Assembly: GCF_029360805.1 (NCBI RefSeq)
Contig: NZ_JARKNC010000003.1
Coordinates: 62,001-126,000 of the forward strand
From: Daejeonella sp. JGW-45
Lineage (GTDB): Bacteria; Bacteroidota; Bacteroidia; Sphingobacteriales; Sphingobacteriaceae
Direction: 5' to 3'
DNA length: 64,000 bases
Under the pieces are notes generated by a model. That model searched no databases, was not told the origin of the DNA, and was given only the letters and a program-made list of their open reading frames with translations. Shown piece by piece: positions 2,512 to 64,000 of this stretch; within the stretch, counting starts at the first letter, position 1, and each line of letters begins with the position of its first letter. Both the position numbers and the translations under genes were made by a program.

Positions 2512-4659
2512 ATGAGTTATAACGCAATAAAAAAATCATTTGATCTTGGCGATGGCCGTATGATCGAGATCGAAACCGGTAAGTTAGCTAAACAAGCTGA
2601 CGGTTCGGTAGTAGTGAGAATGGGAGACACGATGCTCCTTGCAACCGTAGTTTCTACAGTAGGCGCTAAACCTGGAACAGATTTCCTGCCATTATCGGTT
2701 GATTATCAGGAAAAATATGCTTCTACAGGACGCATTCCCGGCGGGTTTTTACGTCGTGAAGCACGGCTTTCAGATTATGAAGTCCTGATCTCGCGTTTAG
2801 TTGACCGTGCCCTTCGTCCGATGTTCCCGGATGATTATCATTCAGACACCCAGGTGATGATCTCTTTGATATCGGCTGATAAAAACATCATGCCCGACTG
2901 CCTTGCGGGCTTAGCAGCTTCTGCAGCGATTGCAGTTTCTGATATCCCTTTCAACGGACCAATTTCCGAAGTTCGTGTTGCACGGATTGATGGGAAATTC
3001 GTTATCAATCCTTACCTGAGCGACCTGGAACGAGCAACTATTGATTTCCTTGTAGCTGGCACAGAGCATGATATCGTGATGGTGGAAGGCGAAGCTGATG
3101 AAATTTCTGAAGAGGACATGGTTGCTGCAATTGAATTTGCACACAAGGCAATCGTCGTTCAGGTTCAGGCTCAGAAGGAGCTTGCTGAAATGGTTGGTAA
3201 GACCAAAAAACGTGAGTACAGCCATGAGTCACATGATGAAGAATTAAAGAAAGCTGTTTATGCAGCTACTTACGATAAGGTTTATGCAATAGCTAAATCT
3301 CAGTCAGCGAAACACGAAAGAGGAGACGCATTCGGAGCCGTGTTAATGGACTTCATTGCAACCCTTGGCGAAGATCTGGATGATACAACCGGATTCCTTG
3401 CAAAAAAATATTTCCACGACGTTCAATATGATGCCATCCGTAACCTTGTACTGGACGAAGGGATTCGTTTAGACGGCCGCGACGCGCGTACCGTGCGCCC
3501 GATCTGGAGCGAAGTTGGTTATTTGCCATCTGCGCACGGATCTGCTGTATTTACAAGGGGAGAGACACAGTCTTTAACAACTGTGACATTGGGCGCTAAG
3601 TCTGATGAGCAGATGATCGACGGTGCGTTCTTTAACGGTTATCAGAAATTCTTATTACACTATAATTTCCCGGGTTTTTCAACCGGCGAGGTTCGTCCTA
3701 ACCGTGGTGCCGGACGCCGTGAAATCGGCCATGGTAACCTTGCAATGCGTTCCCTGAAAAAGGTACTTCCAGGCGATGAAAACCCATACACCATACGTGT
3801 TGTATCAGATATCCTTGAATCCAATGGTTCGTCTTCAATGGCTACAGTATGTGCGGCTACACTGGCACTGATGGACGCCGGAGTCAAGATCAAAGCACCT
3901 GTATCAGGAATTGCTATGGGACTGATCACTGACGAGAAGACAGGCAAGTACGCGATATTAAGTGATATCCTGGGCGATGAAGATCATTTGGGTGACATGG
4001 ACTTCAAGGTTACCGGTACTGAAGCAGGTATTGTAGCTTGCCAAATGGATTTGAAGATCAATGGTTTGAAATGGGAAGTGTTAACTGCAGCTTTGAAGCA
4101 GGCAGGTGAGGCACGTCTTCATATTTTAAATGAAATGAAGAAAACTATTTCTACTCCTCGCGAAGACTACAAGCCACACGCACCACGTATCGTTACCCTG
4201 AAAATTGATAAAGAATTTATCGGTGCTGTTATAGGCCCCGGCGGTAAGATCATTCAGGAAATGCAGCGTGAAACCGGTGCAACTATTGCTATCGAAGAAA
4301 AGGATAATCAGGGCATCGTACAGATCTTCGCCGATAACAAAGATGCTATCGATAAGGCGGTAGGCCGAATCAAGGCAATTGCTGCAAGGCCTGAGGTTGG
4401 TGAGATCTACGAGGGTAAAGTTAAGACGATCATGCCGTTCGGTGCTTTTGTTGAGATCATGCCTGGTAAAGACGGCCTTCTTCATATTTCAGAAATCGAC
4501 TGGACCCGCCACGAGACAATGGAGGGTGTTCTGAACGTAGGTGACATTGTTCAGGTTAAACTTCTGGATGTAGACAAACAAGGAAAATTAAAGCTTTCAC
4601 GCAAGGCGTTACTTCCCCGTCCTCCACGGCCAGAAGAAACTAAACCTGCTGAAGCTTAA
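2512..4659 (+). CDS. pnp: Polyribonucleotide nucleotidyltransferase (PNPase)
   Basis: Phosphorolytic 3'-5' exoribonuclease of mRNA turnover, cytoplasmic homotrimer. The 715 residues show the standard order: first RNase PH-like domain (about 10-220), a helical linker, second RNase PH-like domain (about 315-550, with [21 protein letters not shown]), a KH domain from about residue 560 with the GxxG loop ([12 protein letters not shown]), and a C-terminal S1 domain from about residue 630 ([20 protein letters not shown]). Full length with all domains present. The [15 protein letters not shown] start matches the family. It is followed by its own terminator, so it ends a transcription unit. Confidence 0.97.
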
Positions 4660-5447: not shown

Positions 5448-7922
5448 GTGAAGCGATCATCACAACCTTTCTTCCGTCAAGGTTTTTACTCGCAAGCTGG
5501 CTTCAGTTTCATATTATTTTTCAATCTTTTTCTTTGTTCTCTACTTTCTTTTGCACAAGAGTTTTCCTCCATTAAAGGTACCGTCCGCTCATCACGGGGA
5601 GAATTATTAAGCGGGGTTACAGTTCTGGCAACACAATCAAGGATCATTACTCAAACAGATGATGAGGGAGCATATCTAATTAATTCTGTGCCACTGAATA
5701 TTACCCTGACGTTTAGCCGGCTTGGATATAAAGCTGTGACAATTGATCTGGGTCTTCTCCCTTCCCGCGAAAATATACAGGATATCATTTTGTCGCCTGA
5801 AGTACAGTCCTTAGACGAAATCAATATAACCGAAAAGTTCAGCGGCAGCAACTTTAAGCTGGTAGAACCAGCCAAGTTTAGTGCATATCCGACTGTTTCA
5901 GGAAGCTTTGAAAGTTTGATTAAAAATATGCCCGGTGTGTCGGCTAATAACGAGCTGAGTTCTCAATATTCAGTAAGAGGGGGGAATTTTGATGAAAACC
6001 TGCTGTATCTTAATGATATCGAGATATTCCGTCCGCTGTCTATCAGCAAAGGCCAGCAGGAAAGTCTTGGTTTTATCAATCCGGATATGGCTTCAAACGT
6101 GAGGTTCTCAGCTGGCGGTTTTGAAGCCCGTTATGGTGATAAATTATCGTCTGTGCTTGATGTACGTTATTCGAGGCCGGATAGTTTTTCGGCAGAGGCC
6201 TCGGCAGGCTTTTTAGGCAGCTCTGCTACGCTAAAACTTCCCTTCAAAGGGAGCTACGTTTTAGCTGGGGTAAGAAATAAGCGCAATCAGGATCTGCTCG
6301 AAAGGCAGAATTTAAGAGGAAATTATAAATCGAAATTTTCGGACTACCAGCTACTTTATAGACAGGATATAGGCACGAAGTTTAACGTTTCTTTATTTGG
6401 GAACTACAATACCGGCGAGCTTGATGTTGTTCCCGGAGAACGCGAAACAGAGTTCGGAACCTCGGACGAGGTGCTAAAACTGTATGTAAATTATGACGGG
6501 TTGGAAGCTACCAAATATAAAACAGGGGTTGCTGCCATAACCTTCGCTTACAATTTCTCCAATAGCTCCGCCATTAAATGGATCAGCTCTGTGACTGGTT
6601 TAAAAGAGTCTGAAGATACGAAGCTTTTAGGCTGGTATTCATTTGACGAGCGCGATGGAGGTCTTGATGGTGGTAGTAACCCAAGCTTGCTTGGGAGAGG
6701 CTCGCAATATGATTTTACAGAGAACAGGGTGAAATCCGTCATCTATAATTCAGAGTTGCGGATATACAAGCAGTATAAGAGGTCGTTTCTTGAAATGGGA
6801 GCGAGGTTTCAAAACGATCGGATCAGAGACAATATAAACGAGTATGTCGCCCTGGATTCGACATCATTTTCTTCACCAGGCGGCGGTAATTGGATATATT
6901 CAGACATTATTGATGAAGAGACTGATATTAGTATTAACAGGATAAATGGCTTCCTTCAGAATACCTTCAGCCTAAATCCGTATTTAACTTTTGCTGCAGG
7001 CATAAGAGCAAACTATAACTCCTTTACAAAGGAAACTCTCATAAGCCCCAGATTATCATTTATGTATTATCCTGGAAATTCAGAACGGTTTCTTTTGCGC
7101 TTTTCCGGTGGCTCATACGTTCAGCCTCCGCACTATAAAGAACTGAGAAATTATGATGGCAGCCTGAACCCGCGTGCAAAATCCCAGCGTTCATTTCAGC
7201 TCCTGAGCGGTGCTGATTATAAGTTCAATGGACTAGGTACCAAACTGAAATTCACATCTGAAGTTTATTATAAGTTTCTGTCAAGGTTGACACCCTATAA
7301 GACCGACGACCTCAAGGTCAGATATTTCTCTGATCAGGAGTCAAAGGGTTATGCTGCAGGTGCGGACTTTAGCCTGAGCGGAAATTTCGCGCGCGATTTA
7401 GAATCAACTTTCCGGCTTTCTTATATGAAGACAGAGGAAGATATTAAGGATGATTTTTATTTGACCGGTGGGCCAGGAATTCCCGGGGCAGCCGTTAGGC
7501 CGGGATATTTAAAACGTCCCACAGATCAAAGGATCAATCTCGGAATATTGTTTCAGGATCGCCTTTTGCAGAACCCTACCTATAAAGTCCACTTAAACTT
7601 ATTATTTGCTTCAGCGCTGCCCACTGGTCCGGCCGGATCGCAACGTTACCAGGATGTTTTTAAGATTCCAGCATATAAGCGGGTAGATATCGGATTTTCT
7701 AAAGATTTTGCTGACCAGGATAGTCGGAGAATACCCGCATTCATAAAAAAATATTTTCAGTCGCTAAGCGCACATGCCGAAATTTTCAACCTTTTAAATA
7801 ACAAGAATACGGCTTCCTATCTGTGGTTAAAAGACGCCAGGTCGGTTCAATATGCTGTGCCTAATTACCTCACTTTTAGAAAATTCAATTTTAGGATTAT
7901 TGCAGAGCTGAAAAGCCGCTAA
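5448..7922 (+). CDS. TonB-dependent outer membrane receptor with N-terminal carboxypeptidase-regulatory-like domain
   Basis: An 824-residue outer membrane beta-barrel protein. A basic N-terminus and hydrophobic stretch end in SFAQ at about residue 37, a signal peptide. Next comes a CarboxypepD_reg-like beta-sandwich (SSIKGTVRSSRGELLSGV, about 41-125), then the plug domain (SFESLIKNMPGVSANNELSSQYSVRGGNFDENLLYLNDIEI, about 150-240) and the barrel, with the YLNDIEIFRP plug turn clearly visible. The final residues (FNFRIIAELKSR) do not end in the usual aromatic, as is common when Bacteroidota receptors lack it. No SusD-like partner is next door, so it is not a SusCD pair. Substrate unknown. Start is GTG or the following codons; the reading begins at 5448, 7 nt after rpe. 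Confidence 0.85.
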   Translation: MKRSSQPFFRQGFYSQAGFSFILFFNLFLCSLLSFAQEFSSIKGTVRSSRGELLSGVTVLATQSRIITQTDDEGAYLINSVPLNITLTFSRLGYKAVTIDLGLLPSRENIQDIILSPEVQSLDEINITEKFSGSNFKLVEPAKFSAYPTVSGSFESLIKNMPGVSANNELSSQYSVRGGNFDENLLYLNDIEIFRPLSISKGQQESLGFINPDMASNVRFSAGGFEARYGDKLSSVLDVRYSRPDSFSAEASAGFLGSSATLKLPFKGSYVLAGVRNKRNQDLLERQNLRGNYKSKFSDYQLLYRQDIGTKFNVSLFGNYNTGELDVVPGERETEFGTSDEVLKLYVNYDGLEATKYKTGVAAITFAYNFSNSSAIKWISSVTGLKESEDTKLLGWYSFDERDGGLDGGSNPSLLGRGSQYDFTENRVKSVIYNSELRIYKQYKRSFLEMGARFQNDRIRDNINEYVALDSTSFSSPGGGNWIYSDIIDEETDISINRINGFLQNTFSLNPYLTFAAGIRANYNSFTKETLISPRLSFMYYPGNSERFLLRFSGGSYVQPPHYKELRNYDGSLNPRAKSQRSFQLLSGADYKFNGLGTKLKFTSEVYYKFLSRLTPYKTDDLKVRYFSDQESKGYAAGADFSLSGNFARDLESTFRLSYMKTEEDIKDDFYLTGGPGIPGAAVRPGYLKRPTDQRINLGILFQDRLLQNPTYKVHLNLLFASALPTGPAGSQRYQDVFKIPAYKRVDIGFSKDFADQDSRRIPAFIKKYFQSLSAHAEIFNLLNNKNTASYLWLKDARSVQYAVPNYLTFRKFNFRIIAELKSR

Positions 7923-51356: not shown

Positions 51357-51620
51357 GATCTAGTTTGGTAGTAAGAAGCAAAAACTGTTCCTCTAAAGCG
51401 AAAAAGCAGATAATACTAATTCAGGGAGTTTTTCCAGAGGCCCTTTAGATGCTTTCGCCGCTACGGATATAATATAAAAGAATTTCAGCTGTTTTTTATC
51501 AATTTGTTAATAGTGGAATTTGTTGTACCCGTTAATAATATCTCATTCGCAAATGTTATGTCCTTACAATCAAATGGATATCAAAAACAGAACTGTTAAT
51601 AAAGTCACCTTTGTTGTGGG
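51357..51620. other. Intergenic stretch upstream of ohr and the first RNA
   Basis: No credible ORF, tRNA or repeat was found here. The part next to ohr must hold its promoter on the minus strand, but I could not identify a clear -7 box. The bases nearest 51620 begin to share sequence with the upstream side of the second RNA (AACCTGTT before the -35). Confidence 0.5.
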
Positions 51621-51651
51621 TAACCTGTTTATAAATTATAGCACTTTTTAC

Positions 51652-51680
51652 TTGACGGCAAAGGCTTTGTAGCATACCTT
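51652..51680 (+). promoter_or_regulatory. Promoter of structured RNA copy 1
   Basis: TTGACG (51652-51657), a 17-nt spacer, and TACCTT (51675-51680). The latter continues as TACCTTAG, one base off TAnnTTTG, so it fits the Bacteroidota -7 box too, with TTG 20 nt upstream. The layout is identical to that of copy 2. Confidence 0.7.
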
Positions 51681-51686
51681 AGTATT

Positions 51687-52018
51687 AATAAGAACGAGGT
51701 ACATTGACAGTCTGAAACAAGGTCCCAAAAGATCCGAAGCTCTCGGGTTTCAAGATCCGGGATTATTTAAACCTGATTCAGAGCAGATCGCAAGATGTGT
51801 TCGAAAAGATCAGGGTCGAAATGACAGACGTTATTGAAGATTGCAAACGATCTAAGGAATGTATGCAATATTGAAATAAAGGGCCACGAGAATCTTGTTT
51901 GAAAGAGCACTGATTCTACGAACCGGTTAAGTATCGCAGAACTTATGCTTTTGATCAACTACGGTTGTGAAAAAAGTTAAACGGAAACCTGAATCGCAAG
52001 AGGACGGTTTCCGTTTTT
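51687..52018 (+). ncRNA. Structured RNA, tandem copy 1 (unassigned family)
   Basis: Predicted transcript of about 330 nt from the promoter at 51652-51680 to an intrinsic terminator: AAACGGAAACC (51979-51989) with GGTTTCCGTTT (52006-52016) and five Ts. A 5' hairpin GAAGC (51736-51740)/GTTTC (51747-51751) encloses TCTCGG, and a 3' hairpin CAAC-TACG-GTTG sits at 51956-51967. A 16-nt block ATCCGAAGCTCTCGGG (51732-51747) is identical in copy 2. There is no ATG-initiated ORF of note; one frame stays open through the conserved 5' block, but without a start codon. It does not look like RNase P, tmRNA, SRP or 6S RNA, and I cannot name it. Confidence 0.7.
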
Positions 52019-52350
52019 GTTTTCATGGACCCTGGGCTAATATACAGCTGAATCGTTAATTTTCCCGATCTGTTCTCCGCCTAATCCTCTGACATTTATT
52101 GTCAATGTAATCGTTAAAGAGACTTTCCCGCCTGAAAACCTAAAAAAGCAATTGCCTCTTTGGGGTCTATTTCTAATATCGCATAGTAAACATAAAAAAC
52201 GTTTTACTGTTAATATCATCACAAAGGACTTATTGTTAATAAACCTGCGATTTGCTTATTAGCGTGCTATATAATAACTACTTACGAATATCCCAACGGT
52301 TGACAAGTCTGATATTCCTGTTGATAAACCTGTTACTAAAAACATTCATT
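52019..52350. other. Spacer between the two structured RNAs
   Basis: About 330 nt of AT-rich sequence with no convincing ORF, repeat or tRNA. Its last 30 bases before the second promoter align with the sequence before the first one (AACCTGTT...), showing that the duplication includes upstream promoter sequence. Confidence 0.6.
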
Positions 52351-52356
52351 TTTCCC

Positions 52357-52385
52357 TTGACATGTGTCTCCAAAAAGCCTATATT
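52357..52385 (+). promoter_or_regulatory. Promoter of structured RNA copy 2
   Basis: TTGACA (52357-52362), a 17-nt spacer and TATATT (52380-52385), a textbook -35/-10 pair, which is rare in Bacteroidota. The -10 continues as TATATTAG, one base from TAnnTTTG. It matches copy 1 in spacing and in flanking bases. Confidence 0.75.
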
Positions 52386-52391
52386 AGTATT

Positions 52392-52727
52392 ATTAAGACG
52401 GACGTACTTTGACAGCCTGAAACAATATCCACAGAAATCCGAAGCTCTCGGGCTTCATCAGATTTCGGATAATTTAAGCTTCAATTCAGACCGGCATCGT
52501 GAGATAAAGGCTGACAGGAAAAGTTCCAAAGGACAGGCATTACCTATGTTACAAACATTCTATGGAATGGTTGTGATGAGAAAGTAAGGGTCAACGGATA
52601 CTAAAGGTTTGAAAAGACCGGCAGGAACGAACCAGGCAAAGTAAAGATGAATTAATACTTTGAGCAGCTACGGCTGCGAAAAAGTTAAAACGGAAACCCC
52701 AATCGAAAGAGCAAGGTTTCCGTTTTT
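52392..52727 (+). ncRNA. Structured RNA, tandem copy 2 (unassigned family)
   Basis: About 336 nt from the promoter at 52357-52385 to the terminator AAACGGAAACC (52688-52698)/GGTTTCCG (52715-52722) with TTTTT. The 5' hairpin is GAAGC (52441-52445)/GCTTC (52452-52456) with loop TCTCGG; the 3' hairpin is CAGC-TACG-GCTG (52665-52676), against CAAC-TACG-GTTG in copy 1. An outer inverted repeat ATCCGAA/TTCGGAT surrounds the 5' hairpin. The middle of the RNA has diverged from copy 1. Its terminator lies 62 nt before the PIN-PhoH gene. Regulatory or housekeeping roles are both open. Confidence 0.72.
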
Positions 52728-52775
52728 CTTTTTACCCCTTTTTCCATTTCTACCCAAACCTTCTCTCGATTTTCT

Positions 52776-52783
52776 TATTTTTG
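52776..52783 (+). promoter_or_regulatory. -7 box directly before the PIN-PhoH gene
   Basis: TATTTTTG is a perfect TAnnTTTG, ending 5 nt before the ATG at 52789. The message would have almost no leader. I see no clear -33 TTTG at the standard distance. Confidence 0.55.
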
Positions 52784-52788
52784 ATTAA

Positions 52789-54135
52789 ATGGGAAAGGAT
52801 AACTCAATATCAGCTACGGGAAAAATATTCGTCCTGGACACCTCGGTTATTTTGTATGATCATGACGCGTTTCAAAACTTCCAAGAGCACGATGTCGCGA
52901 TTCCGATACAGGTACTGGAAGAACTGGATAATTTTAAAGCTGGGAATGATACCCGCAATTATGAGGCGAGGAGTTTTATCCGTTTGATGGATGATATCTC
53001 AAGGAACGCGCTTTTAAATCAATGGATACCATTAAGCGGAAAGGGGAGAGGCAGCTTCAAAGTAGTAATGGACCATATACCTGCAGAGGCTGATGCTGAA
53101 AAGATCTTTGGAGAAGGTAAATTCGACCACCGCATATTAAATGCAGCTTTAAGTCTTCAGGAGCTGTATCCATTAAAAAAGATCATCCTGGTTTCAAAGG
53201 ATATTTGCTTAAGGTTAAAAGCAAAAGCGCTCAACCTTTTTGCTGAGGATTATGAGACCGGAAAGGTTAAAAATGTAGAGGAGCTTTACACCGGCAAGAC
53301 GACAATAAGTAAACTTCCCAATAAGGTACTGGATGAACTGATCACAAAAAAAGTTCTCCCAATTGAAAAAACCGGTACTAGCATACTTCATGAAAATCAT
53401 TTCTTTATTCTGAACAGTAAAAATAAAACAGTCTCTGCTTATTATAATCCTAAAAAATTTGAGCTGGAATATATTCCGGGACAGTCTGTTTATAATATTG
53501 AACCAAAAAATCCCGAACAGGCCTTCGCCGTTCACGCGCTAATGAACCCGCAAATTAAGCTTGTTACCATCCAGGGAAACGCGGGAACGGGAAAGACGCT
53601 TTTAGCTTTAGCCAGCGCTCTGGAGCAAAGGAAAAATTACAGACAGATCTTTGTCACCAGGCCGATAGTGCCATTAAGTAATAAAGATATAGGATTTTTG
53701 CCTGGCGATATTAAGTCAAAGGTAGATCCCTATATGGCACCGATATGGGATAATCTTAAGTTTATCAAGGACCAGCTAGGTATCGATGAAAAGGCACAGG
53801 CGAAAATTGATGAACTGGTTCTTACAGAGAAAATTTCAGTAGCTCCTCTGGCTTTCATCAGGGGCCGCACTTTAACGAAGATATTCTTTATCGTAGACGA
53901 AGCTCAAAATTTAACTCCACATGAAATTAAGACTATTATTTCCAGGGCGGGTGAAGACACGAAAATAGTTTTTACGGGAGATATTTATCAGATTGACACT
54001 CCATACCTTGATGCAGAAAGCAATGGCCTGTCATACTTGATCGATAAAGCCAAAAATCATCCCTTGTATGCTCATATAACACTTCAAAAAGGCGAAAGAA
54101 GTGAACTGGCCAATCTGGCAAATGATTTGTTGTAA
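52789..54135 (+). CDS. PIN-PhoH fusion protein (PhoH2 type)
   Basis: A 448-residue protein with an N-terminal PIN nuclease domain (residues about 10-150, FVLDTSVILYDHDAF with catalytic Asp17, and further acidic residues in PIQVLEELDNFK) and a C-terminal PhoH ATPase. Walker A is GNAGTGKT at 263-270 and Walker B is FIVDEAQNLTP. These PIN-PhoH proteins are RNA helicase-nucleases in toxin-antitoxin-like settings in some actinobacteria; no antitoxin gene is visible here. It is distinct from the 320-residue PhoH at 16.3 kb. It converges on csp through a shared terminator. Confidence 0.9.
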   Translation: MGKDNSISATGKIFVLDTSVILYDHDAFQNFQEHDVAIPIQVLEELDNFKAGNDTRNYEARSFIRLMDDISRNALLNQWIPLSGKGRGSFKVVMDHIPAEADAEKIFGEGKFDHRILNAALSLQELYPLKKIILVSKDICLRLKAKALNLFAEDYETGKVKNVEELYTGKTTISKLPNKVLDELITKKVLPIEKTGTSILHENHFFILNSKNKTVSAYYNPKKFELEYIPGQSVYNIEPKNPEQAFAVHALMNPQIKLVTIQGNAGTGKTLLALASALEQRKNYRQIFVTRPIVPLSNKDIGFLPGDIKSKVDPYMAPIWDNLKFIKDQLGIDEKAQAKIDELVLTEKISVAPLAFIRGRTLTKIFFIVDEAQNLTPHEIKTIISRAGEDTKIVFTGDIYQIDTPYLDAESNGLSYLIDKAKNHPLYAHITLQKGERSELANLANDLL

Positions 54136-55953: not shown

Positions 55954-57060
55954 TTAATTTAATTTGAGTTGATTTATTCTGTTATTAATTTTCTGAAGTT
56001 CATCGGTATCTCCGGTATACTTATACAATAGAGATAAAGATGTTAATGACTTTAACTCATTAGGATCGATTTCGTTTGCTTTAGACAAATAATATTTAGA
56101 AATATACATCATGTCGCTCTTTGTTTTATCTTTTAAATATAAATTAAGATAAAGTAAACCTAACGCATAATTTCCTTCATAATTATTAGGATTGATATTT
56201 AGAACGGCTTTATAATATTCTTCTGCTTTCAGGGTATTACCAGTCATCTCATTAGAAAAGCCAGCGAGATAATTTAAATTGACATTGAATTCATCCAGTT
56301 TCAGTGCACGTTCAATAAATTGGGCTATTCCTTCGTAATCATTACGATTAACAAGTACATTGATCAACTTAAAAATAAGGTCACGGTTAGCAGGAAACGC
56401 CTCACTCCCATTTTTTAAGGTACCTAATAATTTATTCTCATCTCCAAGCGACTCATATAAATTTGCTAAGATCAAATAGTATTCAGGCTTTGCTTTTTGT
56501 GAAATCAACTTTTCATAAAAGAATATAGCTTTTGAATAATTTCCCAATTCCTGATGAAGCAAGGCCAGGTTATGTGTTATGGAAAAATTATTCCTGTCTA
56601 TTGTGTCAAGAATAGTGAAGTACTTTAACGCTTCGCTGAAACGGCGACCCTTAAATGAACTATTTGCACGGTACAAATAGGTGTGCTTAAGCTGGTCGTT
56701 GATATAGTTGATCTGCGATGCAGCATCCCCCGCCGATTTTGAAGCATAAACAATATTAAGCGAATGCAGGGTCACGTCTACCGGATCTTTGGCGTACTTC
56801 AACTTTAGATTCGAGTCTACTCTGGCAAGCGTGGAATAAATAAGGCTGCGAGTGAGATTATTTCTAAATGCGCCTGAATCTGACTTGGTTTTATAAGCAT
56901 CATCAGCAAATTTTCTCGCACTCTCAAGATCCTTTATATTCCCGGAAGAGGAATATTTTGCGAGATTGTTCATAGCTTCCTTGGTGGTCAGGGTCTGAGC
57001 CTGAGAAGATGCTATGAACAAAAGCAACGTAGAAAAAAGAAATACTGATATTCCCTTCAT
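55954..57060 (-). CDS. Secreted TPR-repeat protein
   Basis: A 368-residue protein with a signal peptide (MKGISVFLFSTLLLFIASSQAQ). At least four TPR-like units are readable: EALKYFTILDTIDRNNFSITHNLALLHQELGN, YSKAIFFYEKLISQKAKPEYYLIL, NLYESLGDENKLLG, and AEEYYKAVLNINPNNYEGNYALGLLYLN. It is probably a periplasmic protein-binding scaffold. It lies 6 nt after gyrA and 7 nt before the next TPR gene, so the three are cotranscribed. It differs from the other TPR protein in sequence and is not a recent duplicate. Confidence 0.8.
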   Translation of the reverse strand: MKGISVFLFSTLLLFIASSQAQTLTTKEAMNNLAKYSSSGNIKDLESARKFADDAYKTKSDSGAFRNNLTRSLIYSTLARVDSNLKLKYAKDPVDVTLHSLNIVYASKSAGDAASQINYINDQLKHTYLYRANSSFKGRRFSEALKYFTILDTIDRNNFSITHNLALLHQELGNYSKAIFFYEKLISQKAKPEYYLILANLYESLGDENKLLGTLKNGSEAFPANRDLIFKLINVLVNRNDYEGIAQFIERALKLDEFNVNLNYLAGFSNEMTGNTLKAEEYYKAVLNINPNNYEGNYALGLLYLNLYLKDKTKSDMMYISKYYLSKANEIDPNELKSLTSLSLLYKYTGDTDELQKINNRINQLKLN

Positions 57061-57066
57061 TGTAAA

Positions 57067-59625
57067 TTATTCCGTTTTCTGATCATCGGTATCTTCCGAA
57101 TTATTTTCCATATCCTCATTTCCGGCATCTTCAGTAGTTTCGTCTTCCACCTCTTCCTCGTGTTCTACCTTAGTAATGGAAGCTATTGAATCATCACCTT
57201 TGAACGTAATCAAGCGAACTCCCTGAGTAGCACGCCCCATCACACGAAGATCACTCAAACCTATGCGGATGACGATTCCAGATTTATTAATGATCATAAG
57301 GTCGTCGTTGTCAGTAACGTCCTTAATAGCGACCAACTCACCTGTTTTTTCGGTTATATTAATAGTTTTAACACCCTTACCTCCCCTGTTAGTAACGCGA
57401 TAATCATCTATATCAGTACGTTTGCCATAACCATTTTCTGATACTACTAAGACCGTAACCTCAGGATTATTGATACTTATCATTCCAACTACTTCGTCTT
57501 TGTCATGCGCCAGTGTGATACCACGCACCCCGGTAGCCGTACGGCCCATCGGGCGAACTGTTGATTCATTAAAACGTATAGCCCTTCCCGAACGAAGTGC
57601 CATAACAATTTCACTTTCTCCGGTGGTCATACATGCTTCAAGAAGCTGATCACCCTCATTTATGTTGATAGCATTTATTCCATTAGTACGAGGACGGGAA
57701 TACGCCTCCAGGGATGTCTTTTTTATCGTTCCCTTCTTGGTACACATAATAATAAAGTTGTTTTCCAGGTATTCCTGATCCTTGAGATTTACAACTTTAA
57801 TGTATGCTTTGATATTTTCCTCCTTAGGAATATTGATGACGTTCTGAATTGCGCGGCCTTTACTGGTTCGCGACCCTTCAGGTATCTCAAACACCCTGAG
57901 CCAGAAACATTTACCGCTTTCAGTAAAGAAAAGCATGTAATTATGGTTTGTGGCAACCAAGATATGCTCGATAAAATCTTTGTCACGTGACTGGGATCCC
58001 ATCGAACCTTTACCACCCCGGCCCTGCTTGCGATATTCTGTTAAGGGCGTACGTTTGATATAACCTTCGTGAGAAATGGTTATGACAACTTCTTCATCAA
58101 CGACAAAATCCTCCATCCGCATGTCATCGGCAGAGTGCGTGATAGAAGTACGGCGCTCATCCCCGAATTTGTCTCTTATTTCAATCAGCTCATCGGTAAT
58201 GATCTTCATCCGCAATGCTTCATCAACTAAAATTTGATTTAAGTATTCGATGGTTTTCATTAATTCAGCATACTCCTCTTTAATCTTATCTCTCTCCAGT
58301 CCTGTCAGACGACGCAAGGTCATGTCAAGGATAGCCCTGGCCTGAATGTCCGAAAGATTAAAACTCTCCATCAAACTTACTCTCGCATCTTCCGGACTAT
58401 TTGACGCACGGATTAACTTAATTACCTCGTCAAGATGATCAAGAGCAATTAATAAGCCCTCAAGTATGTGAGCCCGTTTTTCCGCTTCTGCAAGATCGAA
58501 TTTAGTCCGGCGTATAACTACCTCATGGCGATGATCAACAAAATGCCGTATCAGGTCCTTTAGGTTCAACAACATTGGCCGCCCGTTTACAAGAGCAATA
58601 TTGTTTACACTAAATGAGGTTTGTAAAGCTGTATATTTAAAAAGGTTATTAAGTACCACGGAAGCGTTCGCGTCACGTTTAATTTCATAAACAATACGCA
58701 TTCCGTCTCTGTCCGACTCATCCCTTATTTCACTGATACCTTCTATTTTTTTATCATTAACAAGACCTGCAGTTTGCTCGATCATGTTAGCTTTATTCAC
58801 CAGGTAAGGGATCTCATTTACGATAATACGCTCGCGATCGCCTTTATAAACCTCGATGTCTGCTTTAGCACGCATTACTATCCTGCCCCGACCGGTCTCA
58901 AATGCTTCCTGAACGCCAGAATAACCATAGATTATGCCGCCTGTAGGGAAGTCAGGGGCCTTAACATGCTGCATCAGGTCTGCTACAGTGACTTCATTGT
59001 TCTCAATGTAGGATATAGTCGCGTTTACAACTTCTGTTAAATTGTGCGGCGGCATGTTGGTTGCCATACCAACAGCAATACCCGACGCTCCGTTTACGAG
59101 AAGGTTAGGAATCCGGGACGGCAGTACAGTCGGTTCTTCAAGTGTATCGTCAAAATTGAGCTGAAAATCGACGGTATCTTTATTGATATCCGCCAGCATT
59201 TCTTCAGCAATTTTCTTTAAACGGGCTTCCGTATAACGCATCGCTGCCGGCGAGTCGCCATCAATAGACCCAAAGTTTCCCTGACCGTCAACCATTGGGT
59301 AACGCAGGCTCCACTCCTGGGCCATACGAACCATTGCAAAATAAACCGAAGCGTCACCATGCGGGTGGTACTTACCTAAAACATCCCCGACAATACGTGC
59401 CGATTTTTTATGGGCCTTACTACTCGTTACGCCCAGATCAAGCATTCCGTAAAGCACCCGCCGGTGTACAGGCTTGAGTCCGTCGCGAACATCCGGAAGT
59501 GCCCGGGAAACAATCACCGACATCGAATAATCGATGTAGGCGGACTTCATTTCCTCCTCAATATTAATAGGTATTATTCTATCGTTCTGGGGTGCTAAAT
59601 TATCGTTTTCTGTATCTTCAGCCAT
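57067..59625 (-). CDS. gyrA: DNA gyrase subunit A
   Basis: The 852-residue A subunit that cuts and rejoins DNA in negative supercoiling. The catalytic Tyr131 is in [12 protein letters not shown]. The N-terminal winged-helix part has [16 protein letters not shown]. The C-terminal DNA-wrapping domain has six beta-pinwheel blades, starting with the GyrA-box region [11 protein letters not shown] and later [11 protein letters not shown]. The tail is very acidic ([16 protein letters not shown]). In the quinolone-resistance region the residues [10 protein letters not shown] place Ala92 and Phe96 at the positions of Escherichia coli Ser83 and Asp87. Two TPR genes follow. Confidence 0.96.
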
Positions 59626-59789
59626 GTTTCTTTTACTGTTCTAAATAAGGGTTCTTCAAGTCGATCAAAGTCCGATATAAGTGTTACGATATCTTTACTT
59701 TTTGAACCTTGCGAAGTTAGCAAATTTCACGGTCTTTACCATCAGTGTACAAAAATATTCGGTGCTTCCTGATCTGTGCATTGTCATTT

Positions 59790-61094
59790 TCAGACCTCCG
59801 ATAAAGCCTGTCTATACACGGAAATAGCTCTTTTTCTCGCAAAGTCGTTTTCCACTACCGGAGGGATATCATAAGAATCAAAATCCTTTATCCATGTTCT
59901 GACATAGGCTTGCCGGGGATCAAATTTTTTCGCCTGGGTAATGGGATTAAATATCCTGAAATAGGGTGCCGAGTCACAGCCGGAGCCGGCTGCCCACTGC
60001 CAGTTCCCATTATTGGAGGAAAGTTCATAATCAAGAAGCTTTTGTCGAAAATAAGCTTCTCCCCACCGCCAGTCAATCAGCAAATGTTTTGTCAGGAATC
60101 CAGCAACAATCATCCGGACACGGTTATGCATCCACCCTGTTTCATTGAGCTGCCTCATTCCAGCATCTACAAGCGGGTATCCTGTCTCACCTTTACACCA
60201 TAACTCAAATTCCTTCTCATCATTTCGCCAGGGTATTTTATCATATTTCTTTTTGAAGCTTTCAGAAACAACCCCTGGAAAACAATAAAGTATCATCATG
60301 AAGAATTCCCTCCAAATTAACTCATTTAACCAGGTTTCATTCCATTTATAAGCTAAGCTCACAACTCGGCGAATGCTAATGATCCCAAAACGAAGATAAT
60401 GGCTCACGTGACTTGTTCCCCCTGGCGATGGAAAGTCCCTGGTTTTGTGATAGTTCCTTATAGTTCTTTCGCTGAAGTCCGGTTTTGGCATGACTGGATC
60501 CAGACTTGAAAAACCTGTCTCTTCCAACTCCGGGAATTGAAATTGTTTGGTTTTAAACAGGTTGCTCAAAAATTTCTCGCTTGGGTAGCCAGTAAGTTCC
60601 GCTGTGGTAAATTTTTGTTTCCATTGCCTGGAGTAGGGCGTAAAAATAGTGTAAGGCGATCCATCTGATTTCAGTATTTCCAGCTTTTCAAATATTACCT
60701 GGTCTTTATAGGATTGAAATAAAATTCCCCTCGATCCTAGCAGGGCCCTTATATTCGCATCACGCTTGATGGCATAAGGCTCATAATCATTATTTGTGAA
60801 CACCGCCTGCACATCAAACGTGTCCAGGATTTTAAGAAAGGCTTCTTCAATTGATGAGTATACAACATAGAAGCCCGATCCATGATCTTGAAGCCTTAAA
60901 TCGAGCGCACGAAGTGTATTGTAAATAAACGATATTCTGGGATCGTACTTATCAGTAAGCTCGTCCAGGATGTCCGGATCAAAGATAAAAACCGGCAGTA
61001 CCGGGTAAGGCGATTTAAGGGCATGAAAAAAAGCAGCATGATCATCCAGGCGAAGGTCCCGCCTGAACCAGCAAATACTCAGCCTCGCTTTCAA
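59790..61094 (-). CDS. DNA photolyase/cryptochrome family protein
   Basis: A 434-residue photolyase with an N-terminal alpha/beta antenna domain ([17 protein letters not shown]) and a FAD-binding domain (about 200-420). The FAD/DNA segments are clear: [59 protein letters not shown] and the [27 protein letters not shown] motif. It is most like a class I CPD photolyase, which repairs UV dimers with light. A cryptochrome-like sensor cannot be excluded. It lies 4 nt after the SDR epimerase gene. Confidence 0.9.
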   Translation of the reverse strand: [434 protein letters not shown]

Positions 61095-61098
61095 ATCG

Positions 61099-62022
61099 TT
61101 ACTGAGAATAAATTTCTGTCAGCGCATCATCAAGAGCAGGATAGCGGAATTGAAATCCTGCATTAAGCAATTTTTGAGGCGAATTGCGATCGCTGATCAG
61201 CACTACTTCACTCATTTCTCCCAAAAGGGCTTTTAAAACAAATTCAGGTACGTTAACCGGCCATACCGGCCTGTTGAGTTTCTTAGCGAGGGCCCTGGTA
61301 AACTCATGGTTGGTAACCGGGAAAGGTGTACAGGTATTATAGACACCATTATATTCCTCGTTCTCGACAACCTTTTCAAAGATGGAGATCATATCATATA
61401 GGTGAATCCAGGGAATCCATTGCTTTCCCGTTCCAAGTGCAGCGCCTGCAAACAAGCTAATGGGTTTCTCCAATTCGACCAGTGCGCCGCCATGCCGTGT
61501 TAATACAATACCAATTCTGAGTTTTATTATGCGCTTGCAAAATGCCTTTCCCTCATCGATGGCATCTTCCCATTGTTTACAGCATTCAGCCAGGAATCCT
61601 GTACCATTACTACTTTCTTCTGTAAGTATCTCGTCGCCGCGGTGCCCGTAGTAGCCACCCCCGGATGCTGAAACGATGGTGTCAATTTTTGCGCCCGTTT
61701 CACGTATAGTTTTATAAAGAAGTCTTGTGGACTTTACCCGGCTGTCAATAATTTCCTGTTTACGCTTCTTTGTCCAACGTTTATCGGCAATACCTGCGCC
61801 CGCGAGATGGATTATGGTGTCAATACCCGCCAGGCAGCCTGAATCGATTTGTCCGGTTTCAATATCCCAATAAAAAGCCTCGGCATTTTTAACCTTTGAA
61901 GGGTCACGGGTCAGGACTTTGATTACATGCCCTCTTTGCTGCAGATTTCTCACGATTCTACTTCCGATTAGCCCGGTCGCTCCAGTTACCAGAATGTTTT
62001 TACGTGTTTTAGACTCGCCCAT
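61099..62022 (-). CDS. TIGR01777-type SDR epimerase
   Basis: A 307-residue NAD(P)-binding protein of the TIGR01777 (YfcH-like) group. The Rossmann motif is ILVTGATGLIGSRIVRNL at about residues 9-26, with SASGGGYYGHRGDEILTEES as the middle block and FVLKALLGEMSEVVLISDRNSPQKLLNAGF as the C-terminal domain. The reaction is not established for this group. It is 4 nt upstream of the photolyase gene, an arrangement seen elsewhere, so the two likely share a transcript. Confidence 0.9.
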   Translation of the reverse strand: MGESKTRKNILVTGATGLIGSRIVRNLQQRGHVIKVLTRDPSKVKNAEAFYWDIETGQIDSGCLAGIDTIIHLAGAGIADKRWTKKRKQEIIDSRVKSTRLLYKTIRETGAKIDTIVSASGGGYYGHRGDEILTEESSNGTGFLAECCKQWEDAIDEGKAFCKRIIKLRIGIVLTRHGGALVELEKPISLFAGAALGTGKQWIPWIHLYDMISIFEKVVENEEYNGVYNTCTPFPVTNHEFTRALAKKLNRPVWPVNVPEFVLKALLGEMSEVVLISDRNSPQKLLNAGFQFRYPALDDALTEIYSQ

Positions 62023-62195
62023 TGTTATTTAATTGAACAACCTGTTTAATGTTGCTTCACGAAACCTGAAGATTTCTGCTATTTTATCCCTGACCACCAA
62101 ATGTGCTAAAATACCAAGAAATCCGAAAGGAAGTTCATATTTATTTCATCTTGCATAAAAATACCCTGACTTAGGTATCCCAACACTTGATCATC

Positions 62196-62744
62196 TCAAT
62201 TGATTCCAAGATATTGTACAACCCGCGGCAGGCAGATCTTCAACCATTCCGTATAGTCTTCAGGACGCGATAAAACATTGTTTTGCAGCTCATCCATTGA
62301 AATATATTTGCTGTCCATGACTTCGCAAGGATCCGGGTTTGGAAGATTCTGACTATAGCCAAGGTAAACGTGATCAAATTCATGTTCCGTCAGGCCATTT
62401 TCAAATTCTGCGCGGTAAGTAAAACTGAATGCAAATTTCAGATCGCTGCTCATACCCATTTCTTCCTGAAGCCTCCGCTCGCAGGCACGAAGCGTGCCTT
62501 CGCCTTTTCGCGGGTGACTACAGCACGTATTACTCCATAATCCGGGCGAATGATATTTGCTTAAAGCCCTCCGCTGAAGTAAAAGCTCGCCCGCGTTATT
62601 GAAAATAAACACCGAGAAAGCCCGGTGCAGTACTCCCTTTTGATGAACTTTAACTTTGTCAAGAAAGCCTATTCCGTTATCTTCCTCATCAACCAATATC
62701 AAAAGTTCGTTTGCCCCCTTGTCGTCCATATTGATCATTCCCAA
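62196..62744 (-). CDS. idi: Isopentenyl-diphosphate delta-isomerase (type I)
   Basis: Converts IPP to DMAPP for isoprenoid and menaquinone side-chain synthesis. The 182-residue Nudix-fold enzyme has WSNTCCSHPRKGEG with the catalytic Cys, the metal-binding ERRLQEEMG Nudix-like helix, and the catalytic Glu in TEHEFDHVYLG. The start could be ATG 62744 or the ATG five codons later (MDDKGAN). It lies 6 nt after the lipoprotein gene and may be in one transcript with hemF. Confidence 0.92.
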   Translation of the reverse strand: MGMINMDDKGANELLILVDEEDNGIGFLDKVKVHQKGVLHRAFSVFIFNNAGELLLQRRALSKYHSPGLWSNTCCSHPRKGEGTLRACERRLQEEMGMSSDLKFAFSFTYRAEFENGLTEHEFDHVYLGYSQNLPNPDPCEVMDSKYISMDELQNNVLSRPEDYTEWLKICLPRVVQYLGIN

Positions 62745-62750
62745 AAAGAC

Positions 62751-63152
62751 TTATTCTACCTTTTTCCAGTATTCTTCAACAACCATTCCATTAGGGAGAA
62801 CACCGCTGGTGATCATCTTGCCGGTTTCCGTTTTAAGCTTATAAGCAATTGTTACGTCATCATTCTGTGAAGGCTGAGTGCTGAACTTACTCGTTATTAA
62901 GATACTATCGCCCCTAATTTCATAGGTTCCTGAATTATATAGTTCTGGCGCAGCCGTTCCCTCCAGAAGAAATGCTTCGTACGTGTCCGACTTATAAGTT
63001 CGTTGCATCTGAAAGTCTGTATGGGCTTTACGGGCTTTGCCGTTATAAACACCTCCGTCATACTGCCATGTCCCTTCAATACCATTAGATGAGCATCCAG
63101 CGGCAAATATTAGAATCAATCCCGTTAATATACTTTTGATAGCTGTTTTCAT
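62751..63152 (-). CDS. Small lipoprotein of unknown function
   Basis: A 133-residue protein with a lipoprotein signal (ILTGLILIFAAGC, lipobox Cys20). The mature part has GTWQYDGGVYNG at the front, like lipocalin-type small domains, and SILITSKFS later, all beta-rich. I do not recognise a named family. It lies between hemF (13 nt) and idi (6 nt) on the same strand. A role in the envelope is all that can be said. Confidence 0.75.
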   Translation of the reverse strand: MKTAIKSILTGLILIFAAGCSSNGIEGTWQYDGGVYNGKARKAHTDFQMQRTYKSDTYEAFLLEGTAAPELYNSGTYEIRGDSILITSKFSTQPSQNDDVTIAYKLKTETGKMITSGVLPNGMVVEEYWKKVE

Positions 63153-63165
63153 AGATGTCTATTTT

Positions 63166-64000
63166 TTATATCCAGTTGATACCCTTTTTTAGTAAGCTAA
63201 GTGTTTTTTGTTCTTCGCTGCCCGGCTCTGGTTTATAATCATATACCCAGTTTGCCTGGGGAGGCAGGCTCATTAGAATGGACTCTATTCTGCCATTAGT
63301 TTCTAAGCCGAATTTAGTACCAGCATCGTAAACCAGGTTAAATTCAACATATCTGCTCCGGCGCTGATATTGCCATTTTTTGTGCTCGCTAGTATATGAC
63401 TTATTCCTGTTTCTTTCGATGAGTTCTTTATAGACCGGCAGAAAAGTACGTCCGACGGCTTTGGAAAATTCAAAGATGTCCCGCCATTCCATACCAGTGC
63501 TCTCGGGATTCAAGCGGTCGTAAAAAATGCCACCCACGCCCCTGGTTTCTTCACGGTGTTTGATAAAAAAATAATCATCCGCCAGCCTCTTAAACTTTGA
63601 ATAGAAGTCTTTATTAAACCGATCGCACGTTTCTTTAAGTTCTTTATGAAAAAAATGTGCGTCTTCATCTATCACGTAATGAGGTGTCAGATCGATACCG
63701 CCACCAAACCAGCGCAGGTCGTTCCCTGAGCCCGAGCTCATTTCAAAATACCTGATGTTCATATGAATGATTGGTATCCAGGGGTGATCCGGATGAATTA
63801 CAATAGAAACGCCCGTAGCGAAGAAATGATTTTCGTGTACGCCGAAGGCTTTTTTTATATTCTCGGGAAGATCACCTTCTACCGCAGAAAAATTCACTCC
63901 CCCCTTCTCAATAACATTCCCGTTTTGAATGACTCTGGTTCTGCCACCACCTCCGCCTTCACGTGTCCAAACTTCCTCTTCAAATTTAGACTCACCATCT
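63166..64000 (-). CDS. hemF: Oxygen-dependent coproporphyrinogen-III oxidase (5' end outside window)
   Basis: Converts coproporphyrinogen III to protoporphyrinogen IX with oxygen, in heme synthesis. The visible part is about 278 residues and open to the window end at 64000, so the N-terminus is missing. The sequence runs FEEEVWTREGGGGGRTRVIQ, then EKGGVNFSAVEGD, which are the family's opening blocks. It also has WFGGGIDLTPHYV, KRLADDYFFIKHREETRGVGGIFYD, and YVEFNLVYDAGTKFGL. Taking the GTG at 63897 as a start would miss these upstream blocks, so it is not the true start. It heads hemF-lipoprotein-idi. Confidence 0.93.
   Translation of the reverse strand, partial: DGESKFEEEVWTREGGGGGRTRVIQNGNVIEKGGVNFSAVEGDLPENIKKAFGVHENHFFATGVSIVIHPDHPWIPIIHMNIRYFEMSSGSGNDLRWFGGGIDLTPHYVIDEDAHFFHKELKETCDRFNKDFYSKFKRLADDYFFIKHREETRGVGGIFYDRLNPESTGMEWRDIFEFSKAVGRTFLPVYKELIERNRNKSYTSEHKKWQYQRRSRYVEFNLVYDAGTKFGLETNGRIESILMSLPPQANWVYDYKPEPGSEEQKTLSLLKKGINWI

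Follow-up and report, generated by a model that had tools for sequence, protein, structure and literature searches.

A new family of large structured non-coding RNAs in the Sphingobacteriaceae, preceded by arrays of DnaA-box-like sequences

What are the two similar units that stand in tandem upstream of a PIN-PhoH gene in Daejeonella sp. JGW-45, do they belong to a known kind of RNA, and what might control them? The window, to which all positions refer unless stated otherwise, is the whole stretch of 64,000 nucleotides from contig NZ_JARKNC010000003.1 that was analysed. From the sequence, the pair consists of two structured-RNA genes, u1 and u2, both on the forward strand and each with a promoter and a terminator. 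Their features are listed in Table 1.

Table 1. Coordinates of the two RNA units, their upstream boxes and the adjacent protein gene.
Feature	Position	Strand	Description and basis
DnaA-box-like 9-mer upstream of u1	51594-51602	+	TGTTAATAA; sequence, enrichment
Double box upstream of u1	51615-51634	+	TGTGGGTAA-CC-TGTTTATAA; 2-bp gap; first half one base off TGTGNATAA
u1 promoter	51652-51682	+	-33 TTGAC 51652-51656; -7 TACCTTAG 51675-51682; aligned with relatives
u1 (RNA unit 1)	51687-52023	+	337 nt; repeats, shared block, folding, alignments, conservation
u1 conserved 5' block	51687-51713	+	5' strands of helices P1 and P2; GTACATTGA at 51699-51707 boxA-like
u1 3' hairpin	51947-51977	+	C(UACG)G loop; sequence, alignment helices 17 and 18
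u1 terminator hairpin and T-run	51979-52023	+	UCGCAAGA in loop; alignment helix 19
DnaA-box-like 9-mer upstream of u2	52234-52242	+	TGTTAATAA; sequence
Double box upstream of u2	52319-52339	+	TGTTGATAA-ACC-TGTTACTAA; 3-bp gap; second half one base off TGTTNATAA
u2 promoter	52357-52387	+	-33 TTGAC 52357-52361; -7 TATATTAG 52380-52387; sequence
u2 (RNA unit 2)	52392-52732	+	341 nt; repeats, shared block, folding, blastn, alignments, conservation
u2 conserved 5' block	52392-52418	+	5' strands of helices P1 and P2; GTACTTTGA at 52404-52412 boxA-like
u2 3' hairpin	52657-52685	+	C(UACG)G loop; sequence, alignment
u2 terminator hairpin and T-run	52687-52732	+	UCGAAAGA in loop; sequence, alignment
PIN-PhoH gene	52789-54135	+	PIN_4 and PhoH domains; Pfam; separate gene, outside the RNA

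A repeat search of positions 51400-52900 identified two direct repeats, D1 (82 nt, 80% identical), which contains the -7 element and the 5' block, and D2 (74 nt, 82% identical), which contains the 3' hairpin and the terminator; the copies of each are separated by 705-709 nt. An earlier note on this DNA had drawn attention to the shared promoter spacing, and TTGAC and TA(C/T)(C/A)TTAG are indeed 18 nt apart in both units; the 16 identical nucleotides that it reported at the 5' ends are ATCCGAAGCTCTCGGG. It had given the lengths as about 332 and 336 nt and described the middles as different. The units are alike in size, with boundaries now revised to 337 and 341 nt, and their middles do differ, but since u1 and u2 can be aligned almost end to end at 70% identity this difference reflects divergence, not a lack of relationship.

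Both units are strongly conserved. Compared with Daejeonella lutea (DSM 22385, locus L033), which likewise has two units, over aligned positions, u1 is 90.4% and u2 93.8% identical, versus 77.1% for the phoH coding sequence, 58.5% for the inter-unit spacer and 63.7% for the region upstream of u1. Since the RNA exceeds in conservation even the neighbouring phoH, itself a conserved protein gene, it very probably has a function. A protein-coding role was considered and rejected: among 80 units the longest forward open reading frame has a median length of 33 aa (maximum 99), against a median of 36 aa and a 95th percentile of 67 in shuffled sequences.

Each unit folds better than every one of 100 dinucleotide shuffles (z of -3.7 for u1 and -3.2 for u2), and RNAalifold returns the same architecture separately from two alignments that have no sequence in common, a Daejeonella-type alignment of 18 sequences (A5) and a Mucilaginibacter alignment of 28 (A6). 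The 5' end, AUCAAG, pairs with CUUGAU just 5' of the 3' hairpin to form helix P1, which closes a multi-branched domain, and the GUACUUUGAC block pairs with a segment 5' of the 3' strand of P1 to form helix P2. Branches inside the domain often end in tetraloops of the UNCG (UUCG, UACG) and GNRA types. P1 is followed by the UACG-capped 3' hairpin and then by the terminator, which carries UCG(A/C)AAGA in its loop.

Covariation argues for this fold in both alignments. Double-sided changes that preserve pairing are seen at 41 of 88 pairs in A5 (shuffled mean 19.8) and 31 of 82 in A6 (shuffled mean 16.2), and neither count was reached in any of 500 shuffles; these counts exceed the number of independent events, because the sequences are related and the pairs were counted in the very alignments that yielded the fold, a procedure that favours it. 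Structures slid out of register in A5 have at most 20 double-sided pairs, and the proportion of paired cells drops from 93% to at most 49% when partners are slid by 1-3 columns. The weakest measure is the number of further pair types, which was reached in 2 of 500 shuffles for A5 and 8 of 500 for A6. Covariation in P2 is slight, with a single double-sided pair in A5; in A6 neither P2 nor P1 shows any double-sided change. Across genera, P1 is exchanged blockwise (AUCAAG/CUUGAU, GUUAAGU/ACUUAAU, AACAAG/CUUGUU, AUCAAU/AUUGAU and AACAAAA/UUUUGUU); 79 of 99 units form at least 6 bp of it, where 200 partner shuffles give 58.1 units on average and 67 at most, and in six of the 99 it is only 3-4 bp long. 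Unit lengths in relatives cluster at about 335-365, 395, 440, 545 and 600-620 nt. The forms of about 600 nt in Mucilaginibacter (L059, L060, L106 and others) contain, as judged by eye, an insertion with repeated hairpins of the AUCAGCGUU...AACAAUGA type, which could be protein-binding repeats such as those that mark a CsrB-type protein sponge.

None of the 4227 families in Rfam 15, among them RNase P, tmRNA, SRP, 6S, 6S-Flavo and Pedo-repair, matches u1 or u2 at the gathering threshold. A search of positions 51400-52800 with E values up to 5 gave six weak matches, all far below gathering scores and the best of them (E 0.13) on the other strand, and 16 relative loci gave only three tRNAs. The earlier note had proposed this check, and its view that the units fit no known family is sustained for the window and the 16 loci. 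The Rfam library includes models for OLE, ROOL and GOLLD, and these too have no match in the window or at the 16 loci. The window's sole Rfam match at the gathering threshold is a SAM riboswitch (RF00162; 31572-31676, reverse strand, 63.7 bits, E 1.7e-12).

In general character the RNA resembles OLE, ROOL and GOLLD (PMC12286853), which are likewise large multi-branched non-coding RNAs of obscure biochemical role and limited range; it differs from them in being mostly shorter (335-620 nt), in its Bacteroidota hosts and in the DnaA-box-like array upstream. A survey of the literature, judged from listings, yielded no description that we recognised of this RNA or of a comparable DnaA-box-controlled non-coding RNA; motif catalogues (for example PMC8040213 and PMC6429828) and most subscription literature lay outside its scope. 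What would be new is the RNA family and its proposed control; in broad kind it is still a large structured non-coding RNA.

A covariance model of the 3' module (R1) matches 160 of 301 family genomes at an E value of 0.01, in 13 of 25 genera and mostly once per genome; the total includes uninspected weak matches in G025, G035, G036, G141, G148 and G169 (E 0.001-0.01) and in G203 (3e-4). Distant homologues may be missed because the model has only 13 pairs, and it is small partly because the terminators of Daejeonella are out of register with those of Mucilaginibacter in the alignment. Within Daejeonella, 12 of 20 genomes have a match. The eight in which R1 finds none (G001, G002, G004, G007, G010, G011, G013 and G017; 2.3-3.2 Mb) have possibly lost the RNA with genome reduction, and the small genomes G008 (2.7 Mb) and G016 (2.3 Mb) retain it. 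With u2 as query, blastn at E 0.01 gave matches in 19 of 60 genomes, its own included; those in G025, G054 and G056 (L019, L020 and L022) were judged on inspection to be chance. Conservation above that of phoH, covariation in two alignments, this distribution and the lack of an Rfam match together bear out the description of the pair as structured RNA genes of unknown family, and we consider it almost certain that they represent a new one.

When the scan was widened to the phylum (345 genomes, E 0.001), eight genomes matched, seven in the family and one, G428 (E 3.4e-5), in another family. The putative homologue there (L199) lies on the reverse strand at about 5649-6255 of its stretch, and the predicted RNA, folded as 607 nt, has CCAAG/CUUGG at the position of P1, a UUACGG 3' hairpin and AAUCGAAAGGUU in the terminator loop. 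TGTGGATAA and TGTTCATAA lie 125 and 103 nt upstream of it. The 11-kb stretch contains three forward boxes, and tblastn found no PhoH in it. Coming from one genome, this candidate for a homologue beyond the family needs confirmation. By eye, the motif ACGG(G/A)..ACCGCAGAA occurs three times in it.

The earlier note overlooked the array of DnaA-box-like 9-mers that precedes each unit. The array was analysed in 116 units (80 plus 36) from regions in which the 5' block had been found, with relatives unthinned; the set was selected by the 5' block and therefore not by the boxes. Between -300 and -40, TGTTNATAA occurs 233 times on either strand, against a mean of 6.3 and a maximum of 16 in 100 base shuffles. 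Exact TGT[TG]NATAA is present in 112 of the 116 upstream regions (-260 to -41), with a mean of 2.5 in each and a nearly uniform orientation (four reversed). Box density is 11.4 per kb, compared with 0.051 per kb per strand in the remaining 686 kb of the 80 PhoH loci described below. The enrichment is thus about 37-fold over shuffles (for the T form) or about 220-fold over flanks; the larger figure overstates it and the smaller is safer, because the flank control is mostly coding.

The arrangement of the boxes is also characteristic. Double boxes with a gap of 2-3 bp and at most two substitutions are found in 108 of the 116 regions, whereas the control has 10; boxes 6 bp apart (58 regions) and 12 bp apart (68 regions) are frequent as well, and the commonest start-to-start distance is 11 bp, with 15 and 21 also common. 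Among the 15 commonest 9-mers, position 4 is T in 231, G in 62, C in 7 and A in 2; the commonest box, TTATNAACA (231), is one base off the canonical TTATNCACA, and the canonical TGTGNATAA accounts for 62. Of 13 RNA units without a PhoH gene in the surrounding 4 kb or so, 12 retain the boxes. We hold it highly probable that the boxes are bound by a dedicated regulator. Searches for double boxes elsewhere gave 10 matches against 4 in the control for the JGW-45 genome and 18 against 12 for 11 genomes, two of which had none, and no wider double-box regulon was visible in either search. Two imperfect double boxes of the JGW-45 genome, L206 (C5:14703) and L209 (C9:854578), do precede genes named by eye as clpC-like and parA-like, at distances of 86 and 174 bp respectively.

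DnaA, the protein that starts DNA replication, is a candidate for this regulator. Upstream of dnaA itself in 30 family genomes there are 23 TGT[TG]NATAA-type 9-mers in 12.8 kb, as against one in the 27.6 kb further upstream and six for reversed control patterns; 28 of the 30 regions are a full 450 bp and two only 105 bp. Boxes occur in 13 of the 30 regions, in five of 15 among RNA-bearing genomes and in none of three from Mucilaginibacter, and 14 of the 23 boxes are in reverse orientation. In four genomes of g14, probably Pedobacter, canonical and variant boxes are mixed upstream of dnaA. Because only five of the 15 RNA-bearing genomes have a box upstream of dnaA, we lowered our estimate a little, and now give DnaA an even chance of being the regulator. 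In Escherichia coli, boxes separated by 2 or 3 bp are favoured by DnaA (PMC11317965), and its double-box promoters have tandem 9-mers with the same 2-3 bp gap as those described here; the E. coli example precedes a protein gene, purH, the most frequent 9-mer of the present arrays is one base different, and its binding by DnaA is a prediction.

Alternatively, the same RNA family could have its array bound by another regulator, for example one of the OmpR/PhoB type reading 11-bp direct repeats, in which case the RNA would belong to a stress or phosphate response. The predominance of the 11-bp distance, the nearly uniform orientation of the boxes and the suitability of 11-bp repeats for such proteins all favour this, as do the one-base departure of the commonest 9-mer from the canonical DnaA box and the ten RNA-bearing genomes of 15 with no box upstream of dnaA. 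TGTTAA, moreover, resembles Pho-type half sites. However, spacings of 15 and 21 are common too, canonical DnaA boxes are mixed into the arrays, and taking all genomes together the region upstream of dnaA is enriched in the 9-mer, the g14 genomes having mixed clusters there. A phosphate regulon in particular was rejected, since no pst or phosphatase gene was recognised by eye beside the 13 double-box sites inspected of 28. We regard a regulator other than DnaA as a possibility to be taken seriously, but as less likely than not.

The explanation that we prefer, a new structured non-coding RNA family with a probable link between its transcription and DnaA, stands as a whole at about even. Its fold, conservation, distribution and upstream boxes are computational results; binding of the double boxes by DnaA, and an RNA output that follows DnaA, we infer. 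Each unit would be a gene transcribed on its own, and its product a large structured non-coding RNA with a length of about 340 nt here and about 335-620 nt in relatives. One-way double boxes of the form TGT(T/G)NATAA-N2/3-TGT(T/G)NATAA would bind DnaA, and RNA output would follow DnaA level or nucleotide state, and with it replication. The RNA would then be a stable structured molecule working in trans, probably as part of an RNP; that it acts in trans, as an RNP or a regulator, seems to us somewhat probable. PIN-PhoH, a predicted RNase/ATPase and frequent neighbour, would be a plausible partner or processing factor. We put forward only tentatively the boldest version, in which a new DnaA-switched class with a double-box array, carried by roughly half the Sphingobacteriaceae sampled and by a single genome from another Bacteroidota family, reports or feeds back on replication, possibly with PIN-PhoH.

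With this RNA, a large group of environmental bacteria in which our searches turned up few described non-coding RNAs gains a conserved structured family. If DnaA drives it, there would be a direct wire from replication initiation to a non-coding RNA outside the origin, through which a stable RNA would report or feed back on chromosome replication, and the double boxes would offer a route to the DnaA-binding code of the Bacteroidota. The nearest parallel among genes tied to replication-control sequences is CcnA of Caulobacter crescentus, a cell-cycle non-coding RNA within the origin, presumably activated by CtrA (PMC8959179); the RNA here lies away from the likely origin (GC skew, one genome sampled). 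A role of the locus as replication origin was rejected on the same data: the RNA of G135 is at 2.545 Mb, away from noisy skew switches at about 1.1-1.3 and 2.9-3.4 Mb (20 samples of 20 kb).

The 5' block permits a further reading that is compatible with the preferred explanation. It could be a boxA of the rRNA type, on which NusB-S10 would load on the nascent RNA and shield a long untranslated transcript from Rho. GTACTTTGACA at about +12 is boxA-like, GTTCTTTGA or GTTCTTTAA (with a GTTCTTT core) occurs in seven of the 116 blocks, including those of g4 and g12 loci, GTTCTTTAAAG is found in eight of 12 family 16S leaders, and the 5' strand is nearly fixed while its pairing partner varies. However, 93 of the 116 blocks have GTACTTTGA, with A where all 11 of the family 16S leaders reaching the site have T, and differ from the boxA of family rRNA leaders at several bases; the block also pairs in P2, which can account for part of its conservation. 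We keep a boxA function as a possible rival or addition, less likely than not.

Could the RNA instead serve the PIN-PhoH protein, as an RNA antitoxin-like inhibitor, a substrate or a guide of this nuclease/ATPase? The search beside PIN-PhoH in relatives that the earlier note had proposed was productive: 69 of 80 loci have a unit, recognised by a 5'-block regular expression, upstream of PhoH and in the same orientation as it, the 80 being the best of 184 candidates by PIN-PhoH protein and mostly from Mucilaginibacter. The 11 loci without a unit include three cut by contig ends (L043, L045 and L074). The duplication that the same note had inferred is real here, but it is not a defining trait of the family, since only nine of the 69 positive loci have two units. 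In L177 (G159), three units lie within 5 kb, at 3338, 4937 and 7981, the middle one without an exact upstream box, and there is no PhoH in the 13-kb stretch.

Proximity of RNA and PhoH is kept in several genera while the neighbour on the other side changes, from a FUSC-type gene in most inspected g1, g14, g12 and g45 loci to a ROK-type kinase, a radical-SAM pair or an rpiB-like gene elsewhere (by eye; FUSC and OsmC in the window were assigned by Pfam). The g4 loci point the same way, with the RNA divergent from yet adjacent to phoH in four of five (L165, L166, L189 and L190); no PhoH was found in the stretch of the fifth, L167. Against a partnership, copies of the RNA from which PhoH is missing for about 4 kb around occur in several genomes, a terminator separates RNA and PhoH, phoH appears from sequence to have its own promoter-like motif in Mucilaginibacter, and the adjacency is also explained by shared ancestry. 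Copies away from phoH have no neighbour common to all, and some of those in Mucilaginibacter share neighbours. The linkage may thus be functional or inherited; a functional connection of any sort is doubtful in our judgement, and the specific role of inhibitor, substrate or guide improbable. A cis-acting leader of phoH was rejected in view of the intervening terminator and of the copies remote from or divergent to phoH. The RNA of type III toxin-antitoxin systems (ToxI) offers a likeness, as an RNA gene with a terminator upstream of a nuclease gene, but the repeat search of 51400-52900 found no short tandem-repeat array here, the neighbour combines PIN_4 and PhoH and is not ToxN-like, and the RNA is also found without PhoH nearby.

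It is very unlikely that the DNA, rather than the RNA, is the functional part, as a datA- or DBC-like locus that titrates or recycles DnaA and yields the RNA as a by-product: each genome has one dense group of boxes or a few, as this would predict, but the transcribed part is better conserved than both phoH and the region upstream of u1, and A5 and A6 record compensatory changes in the RNA. A diverged form of a known housekeeping RNA (6S, RNase P, tmRNA or SRP), or a chance repeat, is scarcely credible, for although the size resembles that of RNase P RNA or tmRNA and most genomes have one match, Rfam scans of the unit region and the 16 relative loci found only tRNAs, with the proviso that a relative recognisable by structure alone could have escaped them, and the fold is multi-branched and not rod-like.

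The likeness to 6S and 6S-Flavo extends to being a regulatory RNA in mostly one copy; neither has a match at the locus, and the fold here is not a rod with a central bubble. The 6S model RF00013 had no match in the JGW-45 genome, and a search with RF01685 in 41 genomes was uninformative because its control matched nowhere. An origin from phages or plasmids was likewise rejected, with no blastn match in phage or plasmid collections and two patterns absent from viral contigs. Towards the end of the window, at about 56000-64000, GC skew shifts from about zero or positive to -0.11/-0.12, possibly reflecting gene orientation or a replichore feature.
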